DNA from: Gallionellaceae bacterium
GTDB lineage: Bacteria; Pseudomonadota; Gammaproteobacteria; Burkholderiales; Gallionellaceae
NCBI GenBank assembly: GCA_030646595.1
Contig: JAUSKS010000305.1
Coordinates: forward strand, 1-13,203
Reading direction: 5' to 3'
DNA length: 13,203 nucleotides
Below, piece after piece: positions 7,856 through 13,203 of this stretch; the first letter of the stretch is position 1; the number at the start of each line of letters is the position of its first letter. Under the pieces are notes generated by a model, which saw only the letters and a list, made by a program, of their open reading frames with translations, made no database searches and had not been told where the DNA came from. Both the position numbers and the translations under genes were made by a program.

Positions 7856-9106
7856 ATGGGACGTTTATCAAGAAATATTTATTCGCTGGTGTGCTTGCTC
7901 AGTTATGTGGCATGCAGTTACTCAGCCTGGGGCGCAGACTCTGCGCCCGGCGCTGACGTGACTAAACTCCTGCAACTGGCGCGGCAGCAGAATCCGGAAT
8001 TCGCTGCCACGCGTCTGGAAGCAGACGCAGCAGCAGAACGGATCGCATCTGCCGCTGCCTTGCCTGATCCGGTGTTGCGCACCGAATTGCGTGACTTTAC
8101 CAACCAGAGCGGGAATCCCTCTGTTTATTATCGCGTCATGCAAACCCTGCCCTGGCCTGGCAAGCGCGGCTTGCAACAGGAAGTGGCTGAGGCTGAAAGC
8201 AAACAGGCGCAGGGACGGAGCGCGTTAAGCTGGGCCGAGCTGGCAGCCAGAATCAAGATTAATTTTGCACAATATTATGTGCTGGTGCGCAGCGAAAAAT
8301 TGACACAAGAGATATTCGATCTGGTTACCCGCCTGGAACATATCGCCCAGGCGCGCTATGCCACCGGGCTGGCTCCGCAACAGGATGTAATCCGTGCGCA
8401 GATGGAGCAGACCGAATTGCGTCGCGATCTGGTCATGCTGAACACCGATCAGCATCACGCCATGACCCGTCTCAACACATTATTGCAACGCGAGCCTTAT
8501 GCACCCCTGGCAGAGCCCCAGCACCTGCGCCCATTACCTGCTGCAGACAAGCTGACCCTGGCAGCACTGGAAGAAAGATTGCGCATACACAATCCACAAC
8601 TCTTCACCCTGAATGCGCAGTTGGCGACGGCAGAAAAAAGCCGCGCTTTGACTTTAAAAAATCGCTATCCAGATATCACGGTCGGCCTGGCACCAACTCA
8701 AATTAGAGGGAAAATCACAGAATGGGAATTGATGTTCGAGCTGAATATCCCGCTGCAACAACAATCTCGCCGCTCACGCGAGCGCGAGGCAGATACCCTG
8801 TTGGCCGCAGCGCGTAGCCGCAAGGAGGCAGCAGCTAATCAATTACTGGGGGATTTAGTCGAGAACGTGCTGGCGCTCGATGCGGCGCAACGGCTGGTTA
8901 CCCTTAACGCAAACAGCTTGCAGCCGCAGGCAGAAGCCAGCTTGCAGGCAGCGCTGGCGGGCTACCAGAATGGCAAGGTGGATTTCGCCACCTTGCTCGA
9001 CGCGCAGCGGCAAATTCTCAAGGCCAAGCTGGATGTATTAAATGCCCAGGCAGAAGCGCAAACACGCTTGGCCGAAATTGAAAAATTAGTAGGAGAAGAA
9101 TTATGA
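7856..9106 (+). CDS. cusC: CusC/CzcC-like outer-membrane efflux channel (TolC family)
   Basis: This is the outer-membrane factor of the tripartite pump. I prefer ATG 7856 over 7820 because TTGGAGAA sits 7-8 bases before it and a clean signal peptide then begins (MGRLSRNIYSLVCLL, cleavage near AWGA before DSAPG). The 416-residue product shows the TolC-family outer membrane efflux layout: VTKLLQLARQQNPEFAATRLEA, then ALPDPVLRTELRDF, then two long alpha-helical halves (QARYATGLAPQQDVIRAQMEQTELRRDL and GYQNGKVDFATLLDAQRQIL). The lipoprotein Cys seen in E. coli CusC is not convincing here. The stop overlaps the next start as ATGA, so it is coupled to the adaptor. The gene name follows from the operon rather than from sequence alone. 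Confidence 0.88.
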   Translation: MGRLSRNIYSLVCLLSYVACSYSAWGADSAPGADVTKLLQLARQQNPEFAATRLEADAAAERIASAAALPDPVLRTELRDFTNQSGNPSVYYRVMQTLPWPGKRGLQQEVAEAESKQAQGRSALSWAELAARIKINFAQYYVLVRSEKLTQEIFDLVTRLEHIAQARYATGLAPQQDVIRAQMEQTELRRDLVMLNTDQHHAMTRLNTLLQREPYAPLAEPQHLRPLPAADKLTLAALEERLRIHNPQLFTLNAQLATAEKSRALTLKNRYPDITVGLAPTQIRGKITEWELMFELNIPLQQQSRRSREREADTLLAAARSRKEAAANQLLGDLVENVLALDAAQRLVTLNANSLQPQAEASLQAALAGYQNGKVDFATLLDAQRQILKAKLDVLNAQAEAQTRLAEIEKLVGEEL

Positions 9107-10347
9107 AACGTAGCGTGGGATGGATATTGGTGTTGCTTGTCGCAGTGGCACTAGGCTACTGGGCAAGCGCACAGAAGACAGAAAAAACAACGCCTGAGAC
9201 GCCGCGCAAAATTCTCTATTACCGCAATCCGATGGGGCTACCTGATACCTCACTCGTGCCCAAGAAAGATGCGATGGATATGGACTACATCCCTGTGTAT
9301 GAGGGGGAAGAAAATGCCATGGGTAACCAAATCCAGATTAGCGTGGAAAAAATACAAAAGCTGGGCGTGAAAACCGAGGTTGCTGCTTTGCGCAAATTGA
9401 CGCAAACCGTACGTGCCGTCGGGCGCATCGAACCGAACGAGCGCCGTGTCTACAGCATTGCGCCGAAATTTGAAGGCTGGGTAGAAAAGCTGCACGTCAA
9501 TGCAGTCGGTGATGTGGTCAAACTCGGGCAGCCCTTGTTCGAAATTTACAGTCCGGAACTGGTTTCTGCGCAGCGCGAATATCTGATTGCGGCCAATGGA
9601 GTAACCGCCATGCAGACAGCCGCGTCAGAGGCGCAGAATGGAATGCAGACCCTGGCCGATTCCAGCCTGACGCGACTGCAAAGTTGGGACATCAATGACA
9701 GTGAATTGCAGCAGTTGCGCAAAACGGGCGAGGTCAAACGCACCTTGGTTTATCGCTCGCCAGTGCTCGGTGTTGTCCTGGAAAAACCGGCGGTGCAGGG
9801 CATGCGCTTCATGCCAGGCGAGATGATGTACAAGATCGCCGATCTGTCCACAGTATGGATCATGGCCGATGTGTTTGAGCAAGACATTGGGCTGATCAAG
9901 GTCGGGCAAGCGGCGCAGGTGTGGCTGGATGCTTTTCCCGGGCGCGAATTTAAAACACGCGTGGCCTATATTTATCCAACGCTAAACGAACAGACACGAA
10001 CCATCCCGGTGCGTCTGGAAATGGCCAATGGCGAGGCGCTGCTGCGCCCCGGTATGTATGCCCAGGTCGAACTGCTCGCAGCCAGCGACAAGGCCGCGAC
10101 AGTCACCGTGCCCGATTCGGCAGTAATACACAGCGGTCAGCGCACCTTGGTGCTGGTGGAATTGGGTGCAGGTCGCTATGAAGCGCGCGAGGTGAAGCTG
10201 GGCAGACATGCGGACGATTACATTGAAGTGACAGAGGGAATTTCCCAAGACGAAAAAGTGGTGGTCAGCGCCAACTTTTTGATTGACGCCGAGAGCAATC
10301 TTAAAGCGGTGATTGGTGGCTTGGGCAGCGCACATACGGGGCATTAA
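9103..10347 (+). CDS. cusB: CusB-like periplasmic adaptor (membrane fusion protein) for Cu(I)/Ag(I) efflux
   Basis: The 414-residue adaptor has an N-terminal anchor at residues 5-22. A heavy-metal-binding segment follows at about 38-69 (YYRNPMGLPDTS, then KKDAMDMDYIPVYEGE). Met44, Met58 and Met60 mirror the three methionines that bind Cu(I)/Ag(I) in E. coli CusB (an M, about 14 residues, then MDM). After it come the usual HlyD-type parts: a beta-barrel start (VRAVGRIEPNERRVYSIAPKFEGWVEKL), a helical hairpin (PLFEIYSPELVSAQREYL), and a C-terminal barrel and membrane-proximal region (IYPTLNEQTRTIPVRLEM, LRPGMYAQVEL). GGAGAAG precedes the ATG. The next operon gene, cusA, would normally follow at once, but 653 bases with a DUF559 module intervene. 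Confidence 0.92.
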   Translation: MKRSVGWILVLLVAVALGYWASAQKTEKTTPETPRKILYYRNPMGLPDTSLVPKKDAMDMDYIPVYEGEENAMGNQIQISVEKIQKLGVKTEVAALRKLTQTVRAVGRIEPNERRVYSIAPKFEGWVEKLHVNAVGDVVKLGQPLFEIYSPELVSAQREYLIAANGVTAMQTAASEAQNGMQTLADSSLTRLQSWDINDSELQQLRKTGEVKRTLVYRSPVLGVVLEKPAVQGMRFMPGEMMYKIADLSTVWIMADVFEQDIGLIKVGQAAQVWLDAFPGREFKTRVAYIYPTLNEQTRTIPVRLEMANGEALLRPGMYAQVELLAASDKAATVTVPDSAVIHSGQRTLVLVELGAGRYEAREVKLGRHADDYIEVTEGISQDEKVVVSANFLIDAESNLKAVIGGLGSAHTGH

Positions 10348-10362
10348 AATTTTCTCTGTAAA

Positions 10363-10503
10363 CCCCATTCCCACCCCAGCCCCTCCCCTTGCACCCGCTA
10401 GGGGTAGGCCGTGGTTGTAAAGCCGCTAAAGCGGCAACAGCCACGCTCAAGGGGAGGGAGCGGTTCCTTCCCCTTCAAGGGGAAGGCTAGGATGGGGATG
10501 GGG
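10363..10503 (+). repeat. Left terminal inverted repeat of the DUF559 module
   Basis: It holds an outer palindrome, CCCCTCCCCTTG (10380-10391) against CAAGGGGAGGGAG (10448-10460), whose loop has been filled by a 56-base insert. It also holds an inner perfect palindrome at 10466-10486 (arms CCTTCCCCTT and AAGGGGAAGG around one C), then GCTAGGATGGGGATGGGG. Compared with the right repeat it lacks about 13 bases in the linker after GGGAGCG. Confidence 0.75.
10392..10447. repeat. Nested hairpin inserted in the loop of the left palindrome
   Basis: Inside the outer palindrome loop is a second structured unit. CGTGG (10410-10414) pairs with CCACG (10441-10445), TTGT with ACAG or wobble partners, and the inner stem is GCCGCT (10422-10427) with AGCGGC (10430-10435). 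The right terminal repeat has no such insert, so this is either a second palindromic element nested in the first or a spacer lost elsewhere. Confidence 0.55.
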
Positions 10504-10528
10504 TAAATAAGCCACAGAAAGAAAAATC

Positions 10529-10900
10529 ATGAAAGGTCAAACCAACCAACATATCCTCGCCAACAAATTGCAGCGCAAGCTGCGTAAAACGATGACGGAT
10601 GCCGAAAAAAAACTTTGGCAACAATTGCGCGGCAAACAATTCGATGGCTACAAATTTCGCAGGCAACACCCATTCGACGATTTCATATTGGATTTTGTTT
10701 GCCTGGAAGCAAAGCTGGTGGTGGAGGTAGATGGTGGGCAACATTTTGAATCCAGCCGCGATAAAACACGTGACGGGGTGCTGACTCAAGCAGGTTTTCG
10801 AGTGGTTCGGTTTTGGAATAATCAGGTTTTGAATGAGATGGAATCGGTTGTCGAATTTATTTGGCTGGAGCTTAAGAGGCCGAACCCATCCCCATCCTAG
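10529..10900 (+). CDS. DUF559 family endonuclease-like protein (Vsr/PD-(D/E)XK fold)
   Basis: The 123-residue protein has the DUF559 signature throughout: NKLQRKLRKTMTDAEKKLWQ at 12-31, GYKFRRQHPFDDFILDFVC at 40-58, then the nuclease core KLVVEVDGGQHFE at 62-74, and RVVRFWNNQVL at 91-101. Likely catalytic residues are D55, E66, D68 and H72, by analogy with Vsr-like nucleases. The last residues (PNPSPS) and the stop TAG are encoded by the right terminal repeat, so gene and repeat are physically one unit. Upstream AGAAAGAAAAA is a weak ribosome binding site. Family members are uncharacterised but are predicted DNA nucleases. Lying between two copper pump genes, it has no evident role in copper export. 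I infer that it is the mobility or homing-like enzyme of the flanking repeats. Confidence 0.88.
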   Translation: MKGQTNQHILANKLQRKLRKTMTDAEKKLWQQLRGKQFDGYKFRRQHPFDDFILDFVCLEAKLVVEVDGGQHFESSRDKTRDGVLTQAGFRVVRFWNNQVLNEMESVVEFIWLELKRPNPSPS

Positions 10901-10979
10901 CCTTCCCCTTGAAGGGGAAGGAACTGGCTCCTCGCTACGCTCCCTCCCCTTCAAGGGGAAGGCTGGGGTGGGGATGGGG
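10885..10979 (-). repeat. Right terminal inverted repeat of the DUF559 module
   Basis: Two palindromes lie back to back: a perfect one at 10901-10921 (CCTTCCCCTT, G, AAGGGGAAGG), directly after the DUF559 stop codon, and one at 10943-10962 with one arm mismatch. The reverse complement aligns with the left repeat, apart from the left nested insert and a short linker gap. The first hairpin could also act as a terminator or mRNA-stabilising structure, though no T-run follows. Confidence 0.75.
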
Positions 10980-11000
10980 TAAAAGCAAATGGAGAATTAA

Positions 11001-13203
11001 ATGTTAACCAAAATCATCACATGGTCTGCCCGCAATATTTTTCTGGTGTTGCTGGCGGCGTTGTTCATTATCGCCGCTGGCGTGTATGCAGTCATCAAAA
11101 CACCACTGGATGCTATTCCTGACTTATCAGATGTACAGGTCATTGTGTACACCGAATACCCCGGCCAGGCACCACAGGTAGTGGAAGACCAGGTCACTTA
11201 TCCGCTCACCACTGCCATGTTGTCAGTGCCGAAATCTAAAGTGGTACGCGGTTTTTCTTTTTTTGGCGCGTCTTTCGTATATGTGATTTTTGAAGATGGC
11301 ACAGACATTTACTGGGCGCGCTCGCGCGTTCTGGAATATCTCAACTTTGCTGCCGGACGTTTACCGCGCGGCGTCATTCCGGCGCTGGGCCCGGACGCTA
11401 CCGGCGTGGGTTGGGTTTATCAATACGTGATCATAGGCGCGCAACGTACCCTAGCCGAATTGCGCACCATACAGGATTGGTTTGTGCGCTATCAATTGAC
11501 CAAAGCGCATGGCGTAGCTGAAGTCGCCAGCATAGGCGGCTTCGTCAAGCAATATCAGGTGGTGGTAGACCCGCGCAAGCTACAGGCTTACGGCATTCCC
11601 TTGAGTAAAGTGTCCCAGGTTATACGCGACAGCAATCGCGATGTGGGCGGGCGGGTTATCGAAATGGCCGAGGCCGAATACATGGTGCGCGGCAAAGGCT
11701 ATTTGCGCGGCATTGCTGATCTGGAACAACTGGTGGTAAAAAGTGATCGCGGTGTGCCAGTACTGCTGCGCGACGTGGCTCGTATCGAACTGGGCCCGGA
11801 TGAACGGCGCGGCTTGACTGAATTGAATGGCGAGGGCGAAGTGGTATCCGGCATCGTCATGGCGCGCTATGGCCAGAATGCGCTGGAAGTCATCCATAAC
11901 ATCAAGGAAAAAATCAGCGACATCACCAGCGGCTTGCCGTCAGGCGTAGAGATCAAGGCAGTGTATGACCGCTCGGATTTGATTCATCGTGCGATTGATA
12001 ATCTGAAACGTACCCTGCTGGAAGAAAGCATCATTGTCGCCTTGGTGTGTATGTTGTTTCTGCTCCATGTGCGTAGTGCGCTGGTGGCGATCGTAATGTT
12101 GCCGGTGGGCGTATTAATGGCATTTATCCTGATGCGTGTGCTGGGCATGAGCTCGAACATCATGAGCCTGGGTGGCATCGCCATCGCCATCGGGGCAATG
12201 GTGGATGCGGCGATTGTGATGATAGAGAATGCGCATAAACATCTGGAGCGTTTGCAACTCCCTCCCCTTCAAGGGGAGGGCTGGGGAGGGGATGGGGGTA
12301 ATGAAAGGCAGAGAACCCATCCCCATCCTAACCTTCCCCTTGAAGGGGAAGGGACAATGGCGCAACGCGCCCAGGCCATCATCGCCGCCTGCAAAGAAGT
12401 CGGCCCCTCATTATTTTTCAGCCTGCTCATCATCACTGTTTCCTTCTTGCCCGTGTTCACACTGGAAGCACAAGAAGGGCGGCTATTCTCGCCGCTGGCC
12501 TTTACCAAAACTTTCTCCATGGCGGGTGCCGCTTTGTTGTCGGTAACCTTGGTGCCGGTGCTGATGCTGCTATTCATACGCGGCAAGATCATGCCGGAGA
12601 ACAAAAATCCGGTGAACCGTATTCTGATTCAACTCTATCGCCCCATCATAGTATGGGTCATGCGCTATAAAAAATTGACCCTCGCTGTGGCTGTGATGGT
12701 CATGGCCATTACCATTTATCCAGCCATGAAGCTGGGCAGCGAATTCATGCCGGCGCTCAATGAAGGTACGCTGATGTATATGCCCTCCTCCTTGCCCGGC
12801 ATGTCGGTGACCAAGGCCGCAGAACTGATGCAGACGCAGAACAAGATTATTAAAAGTTTTCCTGAAGTGGAGTCTGTGTTCGGCAAGGCCGGGCGCGCGC
12901 AAACAGCTACCGATCCGGCACCGCTGGAAATGTTTGAGACCGTCATTAATCTCAAGCCGCAATCGGAATGGCCTGTCGGCATGACCACAGACAAGCTGAT
13001 CAAGGAAATGGATCAGGCCCTGCAATTTCCCGGCGTAGCCAATGCCTGGACCATGCCCATCAAAGCGCGCATAGACATGCTCTCCACCGGCATCCGCACA
13101 CCTATCGGCATTAAAGTGTTCGGCAAAAATCTGCAAGGAATCGAGGAAATCGCACGGCAAGTGGAGGCGGTAGTCAAACAAGTTCCCGGCACCACCAGCG
13201 CCT
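11001..13203 (+). CDS. cusA: CusA-like Cu(I)/Ag(I) RND efflux pump, C-terminus outside window
   Basis: The frame from ATG 11001 (GGAG six bases upstream) is open to the window edge (734 codons). The inner-membrane proton-driven pump is recognised by AIPDLSDVQVIV, GVAEVASIGGFVKQYQVVVDP, and the transmembrane segment with the proton-relay Asp402 (GAMVDAAIVMIENAHKH; D405 in E. coli). The three substrate methionines are at 594 (YMPSSLPGMS), 644 (APLEMFET) and 693 (RIDMLSTGI), with the same 50- and 49-residue spacing as M573, M623 and M672 of E. coli CusA. This supports Cu(I)/Ag(I) rather than Zn/Co/Cd. Asp402 is 3 residues earlier than in E. coli while Met594 is 21 later. The difference comes from an in-frame repeat insertion in the loop after HKHLE. 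The pump is probably still functional, since no stop or frameshift appears. Confidence 0.93.
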   Translation, partial: MLTKIITWSARNIFLVLLAALFIIAAGVYAVIKTPLDAIPDLSDVQVIVYTEYPGQAPQVVEDQVTYPLTTAMLSVPKSKVVRGFSFFGASFVYVIFEDGTDIYWARSRVLEYLNFAAGRLPRGVIPALGPDATGVGWVYQYVIIGAQRTLAELRTIQDWFVRYQLTKAHGVAEVASIGGFVKQYQVVVDPRKLQAYGIPLSKVSQVIRDSNRDVGGRVIEMAEAEYMVRGKGYLRGIADLEQLVVKSDRGVPVLLRDVARIELGPDERRGLTELNGEGEVVSGIVMARYGQNALEVIHNIKEKISDITSGLPSGVEIKAVYDRSDLIHRAIDNLKRTLLEESIIVALVCMLFLLHVRSALVAIVMLPVGVLMAFILMRVLGMSSNIMSLGGIAIAIGAMVDAAIVMIENAHKHLERLQLPPLQGEGWGGDGGNERQRTHPHPNLPLEGEGTMAQRAQAIIAACKEVGPSLFFSLLIITVSFLPVFTLEAQEGRLFSPLAFTKTFSMAGAALLSVTLVPVLMLLFIRGKIMPENKNPVNRILIQLYRPIIVWVMRYKKLTLAVAVMVMAITIYPAMKLGSEFMPALNEGTLMYMPSSLPGMSVTKAAELMQTQNKIIKSFPEVESVFGKAGRAQTATDPAPLEMFETVINLKPQSEWPVGMTTDKLIKEMDQALQFPGVANAWTMPIKARIDMLSTGIRTPIGIKVFGKNLQGIEEIARQVEAVVKQVPGTTSA
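12258..12356. repeat. In-frame copy of the DUF559-module repeats, gene-less derivative, inside cusA
   Basis: Two perfect palindromes sit at 12260-12280 (CCCTCCCCTT, C, AAGGGGAGGG) and 12332-12352 (CCTTCCCCTT, G, AAGGGGAAGG), oriented as on either side of the DUF559 gene. Bases 12313-12352 match 10882-10921 at 39 of 40. Between the repeats only TAATGAAAGGCAGA remains; ATGAAAGG equals the first bases of the DUF559 gene. The 99 bases encode a Gly/Pro-rich stretch (LPPLQGEGWGG, then PHPNLPLEGEG) in the cytoplasmic loop between transmembrane helices 4 and 5. Exact ends are uncertain by a few bases. Confidence 0.8.

Follow-up and report, generated by a model that had tools for sequence, protein, structure and literature searches.

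Rickettsia palindromic elements (RPEs), repeats of about 150 bp, are read in frame within unrelated genes as extra peptides (PMC10969869), and dimers or groups of intragenic REPs encode 20–30 residues, also outside Rickettsia (PMC3733652). REPINs are built from two inverted palindromic half-elements and a spacer, fold into one hairpin and occur in many copies (PMC3116915). Palindrome arrays are also known insertion sites for mobile DNA, with ISPpu9 inserting in REPs (PMC8450116). A DUF559 protein is stated to be a PD-(D/E)XK relative of Vsr; in Caulobacter lacking a cytosine methylase, a DUF559-domain protein is needed for a DNA-damage response, a role that its authors interpret as mismatch repair, and the word stem 'palindrom' is absent from that text (PMC12907096). 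Among the papers listed in searches of the open-licence literature, none links DUF559 to palindromic repeats in its title or abstract, and no agent for untagged G/C-rich repeats was named in the literature searched. Since RPEs and intragenic REP dimers are in print, in-frame palindrome insertion is already a known kind of event; the new point here is the tie between such palindromes and DUF559 genes.

The stretch of DNA analysed here (the window, 13,203 nucleotides) carries an outer-membrane efflux gene, cusB, a DUF559 gene and cusA. Its features are as follows:

11001..13202, + strand: cusA, for a heavy-metal RND pump of the CusA/CzcA type (TIGR00914); the frame is still open where the contig stops, and the insert lies in the TM4–TM5 loop
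12258..12355, + strand: inverted palindromic doublet, REPIN-like, in frame in cusA, 98 bases, reading LPPLQGEGWGGDGGNERQRTHPHPNLPLEGEG
12260..12280, no strand: left perfect 21-bp palindrome, CCCTCCCCTTCAAGGGGAGGG
12281..12298, + strand: left G-rich tail, directed inwards (by-eye comparison)
12299..12313, no strand: variable 15-base spacer separating the half-elements (by-eye comparison)
12314..12331, − strand: right tail, inverted (by-eye comparison)
12332..12352, no strand: right perfect 21-bp palindrome, CCTTCCCCTTGAAGGGGAAGG
10362..10460, no strand: outer half-element upstream of DUF559, with a palindrome that seems to be interrupted by some 50 bases (by eye)
10464..10502, + strand: half-element (palindrome and tail) upstream of DUF559
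10529..10900, + strand: DUF559 (PF04480), a gene of the Vsr-like endonuclease family and the repeat's candidate partner (profile score 132.2 bits against a cut-off of 20.6)
10882..10924, − strand: half-element (tail and palindrome) downstream of DUF559, inverted relative to the upstream copy
10940..10979, + strand: outer half-element between DUF559 and cusA

The repeat in cusA is a C/T-rich palindrome with the consensus CCYTCCCC...GGGGARGG, followed by a G-rich tail. As a single strand, the doublet forms one long hairpin (z −5.5 as DNA and −7.5 as RNA), which none of 200 shuffled sequences equalled. It thus shares with REPINs the inverted doublet with spacer, the single hairpin and the multicopy occurrence. 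Unlike in the REPIN/RAYT system, no RAYT link was found, and DUF559 holds the bracketed place that RAYT has in the REPtron. The GTAG/CGTC intragenic REP dimers differ likewise: GTAG, CTAC, CGTC and GACG each occur zero times in 12258–12355, so that the element does not carry the GTAG/CGTC tag of REPs, and the linked gene is DUF559 rather than RAYT. The comparison of 9000–13203 with Rfam gave no match, and no clear target-site duplication, as a classical MITE would have, was seen by eye at the edges of the insert.

Within the window, the cusA frame runs without a stop or frame change; the C-terminus of CusA is outside view because the contig stops at 13203. The first-pass annotation, which had described two perfect 21-base palindromes in an otherwise normal cusA, was correct in this respect. 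It had also estimated about 24 net extra residues relative to E. coli CusA, and alignment to the solved E. coli protein gives exactly this value (query 411 = 421, query 734 = 720). Compared with CusA orthologues, the doublet insert adds 29–32 residues. Measured between anchors, the loop comprises 39 residues in the window; of 80 named loci, 75 have a loop of 7 or 10 residues (21 or 30 nt). Short loops in relatives represent the empty site. The others are L086, with 39 nt, and L068, L071, L073 and L078, with 69–156 nt of repeat-like sequence; a fairer frequency of the long loop is 5/80 named loci above 30 nt, four of them repeat-like. As a side observation, a GGGGTCAGATCCC-type repeat fills the loop of L078. 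We take the TM4–TM5 and TM10–TM11 loops of CusA to be cytoplasmic, from established RND topology. Judging from the open frame, the doublet would be translated as a Pro/Gly-rich linker of CusA, and the insert appears to be tolerated rather than beneficial.

The source genome (2.3 Mb, 333 contigs, 84% complete) gave 65 blastn matches to the doublet, a number that exceeds that of distinct places because the doublet matches on both strands. At least 80 bases were matched at 20 places, 19 of which were read. By eye, 17 of these 19 doublets consist of a CCCTCC-type half and, across a spacer that varies, an inverted CCTTCC-type half; L010 and L014 deviate. At six of the 21 places examined (the 19 doublets and two halves), the repeat falls where a frame stays open for 120 codons or more, and five of the six, all except L003, were compared with Pfam. 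A conserved protein lies on both sides of the repeat in two cases, CusA and, at L007, NirB, whose TIGR02374 match is split around the insert; at L006, a known domain starts 3' of the repeat, and no Pfam family was found at L010 or L016. The CusA and NirB copies share one reading frame, LPPLQGEGxGGDG...NLPxEGEG. We also looked for a special freedom from stops in the doublets and found none, with 2.16 open frames of six versus 2.35 in local control DNA. The repeat is thus present elsewhere in the genome and in frame in another gene, nirB.

In seven of the 19 doublets of this genome, the doublet lies midway in a separate element of 189–203 bp with 20-bp terminal inverted repeats, CTCATGGCACTCGGTTAAGC (L002, L004, L005, L011, L012, L015 and L020, with L012 lacking the right end). 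Of the six complete copies, five (L002, L005, L011, L015 and L020) have short direct repeats on their flanks, as judged by eye. Since these seven doublets ride in the element of about 190 bp, part of the doublet amplification is hitch-hiking.

Long CusA loops were also found in relatives. Among nine relatives (of 40) with a match at 74% identity or higher, four have short CusA loops (G038, G021, G039 and G009) and five have long ones, which hold other C/T-rich palindromes (G022, G023 and G011), a degenerate one (G004) or another sequence (G019). The G022 and G023 inserts, most of each of which was searched, recur at scattered places of the respective genomes, with 30 and 17 matches on the two strands together. 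A more distant CusA homologue in G024 (L058) has a ATTCCCGCGAAAGCGGGAAT-type repeat in the same loop, which we take to resemble the Neisseria dRS3. All of 120 CusA homologues, among them P0127 of Sulfurimicrobium lacus, had a TM4–TM5 loop of 29–185 residues, which is no frequency, as the search query included the insert. Ten loop-peptide classes took in 111 of the 120, with 9 unclassified and 28 of the window's type in two frames; the classes are peptide patterns that we wrote ourselves, and a single DNA repeat, read in different frames, may underlie more than one of them. Loop DNA was read for the loci of the compared relatives and the 80 named loci, and the remaining loops as peptides.

In an alignment of 192 CusA sequences (the window's own, the 120 homologues and 71 named loci, the other nine of the 80 being dropped as their frames lack the motif used), insertions of at least 12 residues occur at the TM4–TM5 loop, at TM10–TM11 in seven sequences and in two further single cases. 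The pseudo-symmetric TM10–TM11 loop carries in-frame repeat peptides in 7 of 100 parsed sequences (P0122, P0144, P0145, P0148, P0149, P0151 and P0184). For NirB, one hairpin site has long inserts in 8 of 110 parsed sequences (of 120), five of them of the window's type, in a set that is biased in that the inserted NirB protein was the query. The TM4–TM5 and TM10–TM11 loops and the NirB hairpin would gather repeat peptides repeatedly because such peptides are tolerated. From the loop sequences, the CusA TM4–TM5 loop is a recurrent landing site for different repeats across species.

A similar insert, spacer peptide included, is present at the window's site in P0122 (a Sideroxydans MAG) and P0123, suggesting that the cusA insertion was probably inherited from an ancestor shared with close relatives. 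The proposal that the insert had a probable parent copy about 1.3 kb away is not supported, since relatives that share the insert at this site argue against a recent hop from there. The likeness to RPEs that had been drawn holds in part: the repeat lies in frame in conserved protein genes, cusA and nirB, and behaves alike as a dispersed in-frame insert, a likeness of placement and reading frame. Differences from RPEs are that the host, probably one of the Gallionellaceae, is not Rickettsia, that several repeats enter one and the same loop across species, and that the repeat is linked to DUF559. The interpretation was too narrow: in many species different repeats have inserted in frame at this loop, and in-frame REP dimers outside Rickettsia were already in print (PMC3733652). 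Overall, the reading of an in-frame, dispersed palindromic element stands, while the recent hop does not, and the tie to DUF559 genes had been missed.

The DUF559 gene of the window lies between inverted half-elements, and the other two DUF559 genes of the genome have different palindrome subtypes nearby. We counted palindromes that are C/T-rich, have arms of 8 bases or more and lie no more than 200 nt from the domain, reading, among more places listed, one locus per genome and all three of the source genome. In the family, palindromes were near 24 of 32 DUF559 loci and on both sides of 14; in the phylum, near 26 of 29 and on both sides of 17. Control genes gave 1/30 (ParE) and 1/31 (Y1_Tnp), neither with palindromes on both sides (DUF559 versus ParE, Fisher p 2e-9). 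The ratio of near to far palindrome density was 36 and 46 for DUF559 versus 3 for ParE (1 against 2 palindromes). Palindromes are missing at 8/32 family loci, and on one or both sides at 18/32; in two of the eight misses (L170 and L174), the DUF559 domain lies within ORFs of more than 1,000 codons.

The left and right flanks of DUF559 also match each other as inverted pairs. At 31 two-sided loci the score was 24.6 versus 14.7 for pairs with flanks of other genes, a value reached by 0 of 2,000 permutations (p ≤ 0.0005). The inverted fit exceeded the direct fit in 24 of the 31 loci, and the direct fit was better in 7. Compared with the PDB, the DUF559 profile matched 3hrl, 'Endonuclease-Like Protein' (E 2e-32), and had a weak match to 3r3p, 'Mobile intron protein' (E 0.012), presumably a Vsr-like homing endonuclease; further matches to bacterial toxin B subunits (E 0.07–0.42) were taken as chance. 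The NCBIfam vsr match to the DUF559 protein was under its cut-off. Unlike Vsr and the Vsr-like homing endonucleases, the DUF559 gene of the window is bracketed by palindromes, and no intron or intein was seen.

Two side observations concern the position of DUF559 genes. The cusB–cusA junction (10348–11000) holds the DUF559 cassette in the window; in relatives and paralogues, 0–649 nt, often about 300 nt, separate the end of the cusB match from cusA, too variable a stretch to read as an empty site for the cassette, so that named Deinococcus plasmids were compared instead. In addition, ten long-loop CusA homologues lie on contigs as long as that of a DUF559 homologue (for example, 6,436, 12,520, 19,568 and 22,231 nt; by eye), which hints that DUF559 is often near cusA.

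Across 60 family genomes, we counted the palindromes CCCTCTCCC...GGGAGAGGG and CCCTCCCC...GGGGAGGG, for which reversed-pattern controls gave 0 or 1. Palindrome and DUF559 counts were correlated (Spearman 0.77), also within four genera (0.90, 0.79, 0.82 and 0.82; for the fourth genus, n = 5 and p 0.09). The median was 27 palindromes in genomes with a strong DUF559 match (n = 41) versus 1 in those without (range 0–8, n = 19), and 17 versus 1 after removal of four palindromes per DUF559 gene; G008, G015 and G064, with weak partial matches only, were counted as zero. Palindrome number did not follow Y1_Tnp (−0.12) and was weakly correlated with ParE (0.37, p 0.004). Exceptions occur in both directions: G007, G003, G010, G045 and G057 have DUF559 and at most 3 palindromes, and G064, G081 and G082 have 6–8 palindromes and no strong DUF559 match. 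The 3.3-Mb genome G078 has 14 DUF559 matches, several of them fragments, and 96 palindromes.

A DUF559 match was present in 44 plasmid records, ten of which we read. Palindromes accompany the DUF559 gene in six of these: Deinococcus proteolyticus, D. psychrotolerans, D. aetherius and S. parapaucimobilis have them on both sides, Deinococcus NW-56 and A. lipoferum 4B on a single side. The D. proteolyticus plasmid pDEIPR03 encodes the DUF559 protein WP_041223130.1. In Synechocystis B12, a palindrome lies within the annotated DUF559 gene, and no palindrome of this type was found at the A. brasilense, PCC 7002 and Pseudanabaena DUF559 loci (3/10). Specifically, the hpaB/oxidoreductase junction of D. 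proteolyticus contains a DUF559 cassette whose palindromes are exact reverse complements, with outer inverted arms GGGCCAGCGTTGCTG/CAGCAACGCTGGCCC. The same junction has a shorter DUF559 frame in D. wulumuqiensis and no cassette in D. radiodurans, D. deserti and D. ficus; in NW-56, a cassette lies on the other side of the oxidoreductase gene. From this presence and absence at Deinococcus operon junctions, the cassette was probably gained as one unit.

A tie thus links DUF559 to this class of repeat: the genes lie between inverted copies, and gene number tracks copy number. We give a probability of about 0.68 to the following explanation as a whole. A C/T-rich, REPIN-like doublet, dispersed in the genome, landed in the TM4–TM5 loop of CusA, probably in an ancestor shared with the close relatives; being of suitable length and frame, it left the pump gene open, and the repeat would be read as a Pro/Gly-rich linker. 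The DUF559 nuclease may make breaks that copy and spread the repeat, the doublet being the putative non-autonomous form, and such a homing-like break-and-copy route would move the palindrome without a transposase. Mobilisation of the repeat by the DUF559 nuclease is the most likely reading of the tie. Against it speak the seven doublets that ride in a separate element, the DUF559 loci and plasmids that lack the palindromes, the loci with a better direct fit, the genomes in which the two counts diverge and the weak correlation with ParE. More tentatively, at somewhat under even odds, DUF559 proteins could be dedicated mobilisers of a large, hitherto unlinked class of REP-like palindromes of the CCCTCTCCC/CCCTCCCC type in Pseudomonadota and Deinococcota, a nuclease-based, transposase-free counterpart of RAYT/REPIN whose insertions would be read in frame and repeatedly remodel permissive pump and enzyme loops.

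DUF559 genes might instead be passengers, with palindromes that spread by other means and serve as preferred landing or recombination sites, so that the association would reflect target choice rather than mobilisation. ISPpu9 sets a precedent for such insertion (PMC8450116), and some genomes contain palindromes without a strong DUF559 match; yet the median in genomes of that kind is a single palindrome, left and right flanks match each other in inverted orientation, as random neighbours would not, and ParE and Y1_Tnp genes are seldom among palindromes, which together make this reading rather unlikely. If the repeat were an ordinary REP/REPIN that a REP-associated tyrosine transposase (RAYT, Y1_Tnp) moves, this would account for the REPIN-like hairpin (PMC3116915), and the source genome does have two Y1_Tnp genes. 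These two, one of them at a contig end, lack palindromes in the flanks examined, however, and the missing GTAG/CGTC tag further argues against this route; on flanks and counts we rejected RAYT as the mobiliser, which is very improbable.

The remaining two readings concern the loop itself. Were it a native, selected feature of the CusA lineage, such as a metal-binding or regulatory linker, retention of a similar insert in frame in P0122 and P0123 and the long loops of many Betaproteobacteria would be expected. This is nevertheless improbable, given that 7 or 10 residues are the rule among the named loci, that the peptides vary among relatives and match dispersed repeats of their own genome where tested (G000, G022 and G023), and that the insert peptide contains just two His residues and lacks Cys. 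The fragmented, incomplete metagenome bin could raise the suspicion of an assembly chimera, but orthologues are collinear with the sequence on either side, the reading frame is preserved and the two relatives hold a similar insert at the same site, which makes a chimera scarcely credible.

The preferred reading, a REPIN-like doublet spread by a DUF559 nuclease, directs attention to a family of DNA-cutting enzymes that has been little studied and may be responsible for spreading the repeat. With a bracketed nuclease gene that tracks repeat number, the spread is testable in culturable bacteria, for example Deinococcus. The CusA and NirB loops, from no insert to many different inserts, form a natural series in which to test how proteins absorb selfish DNA.
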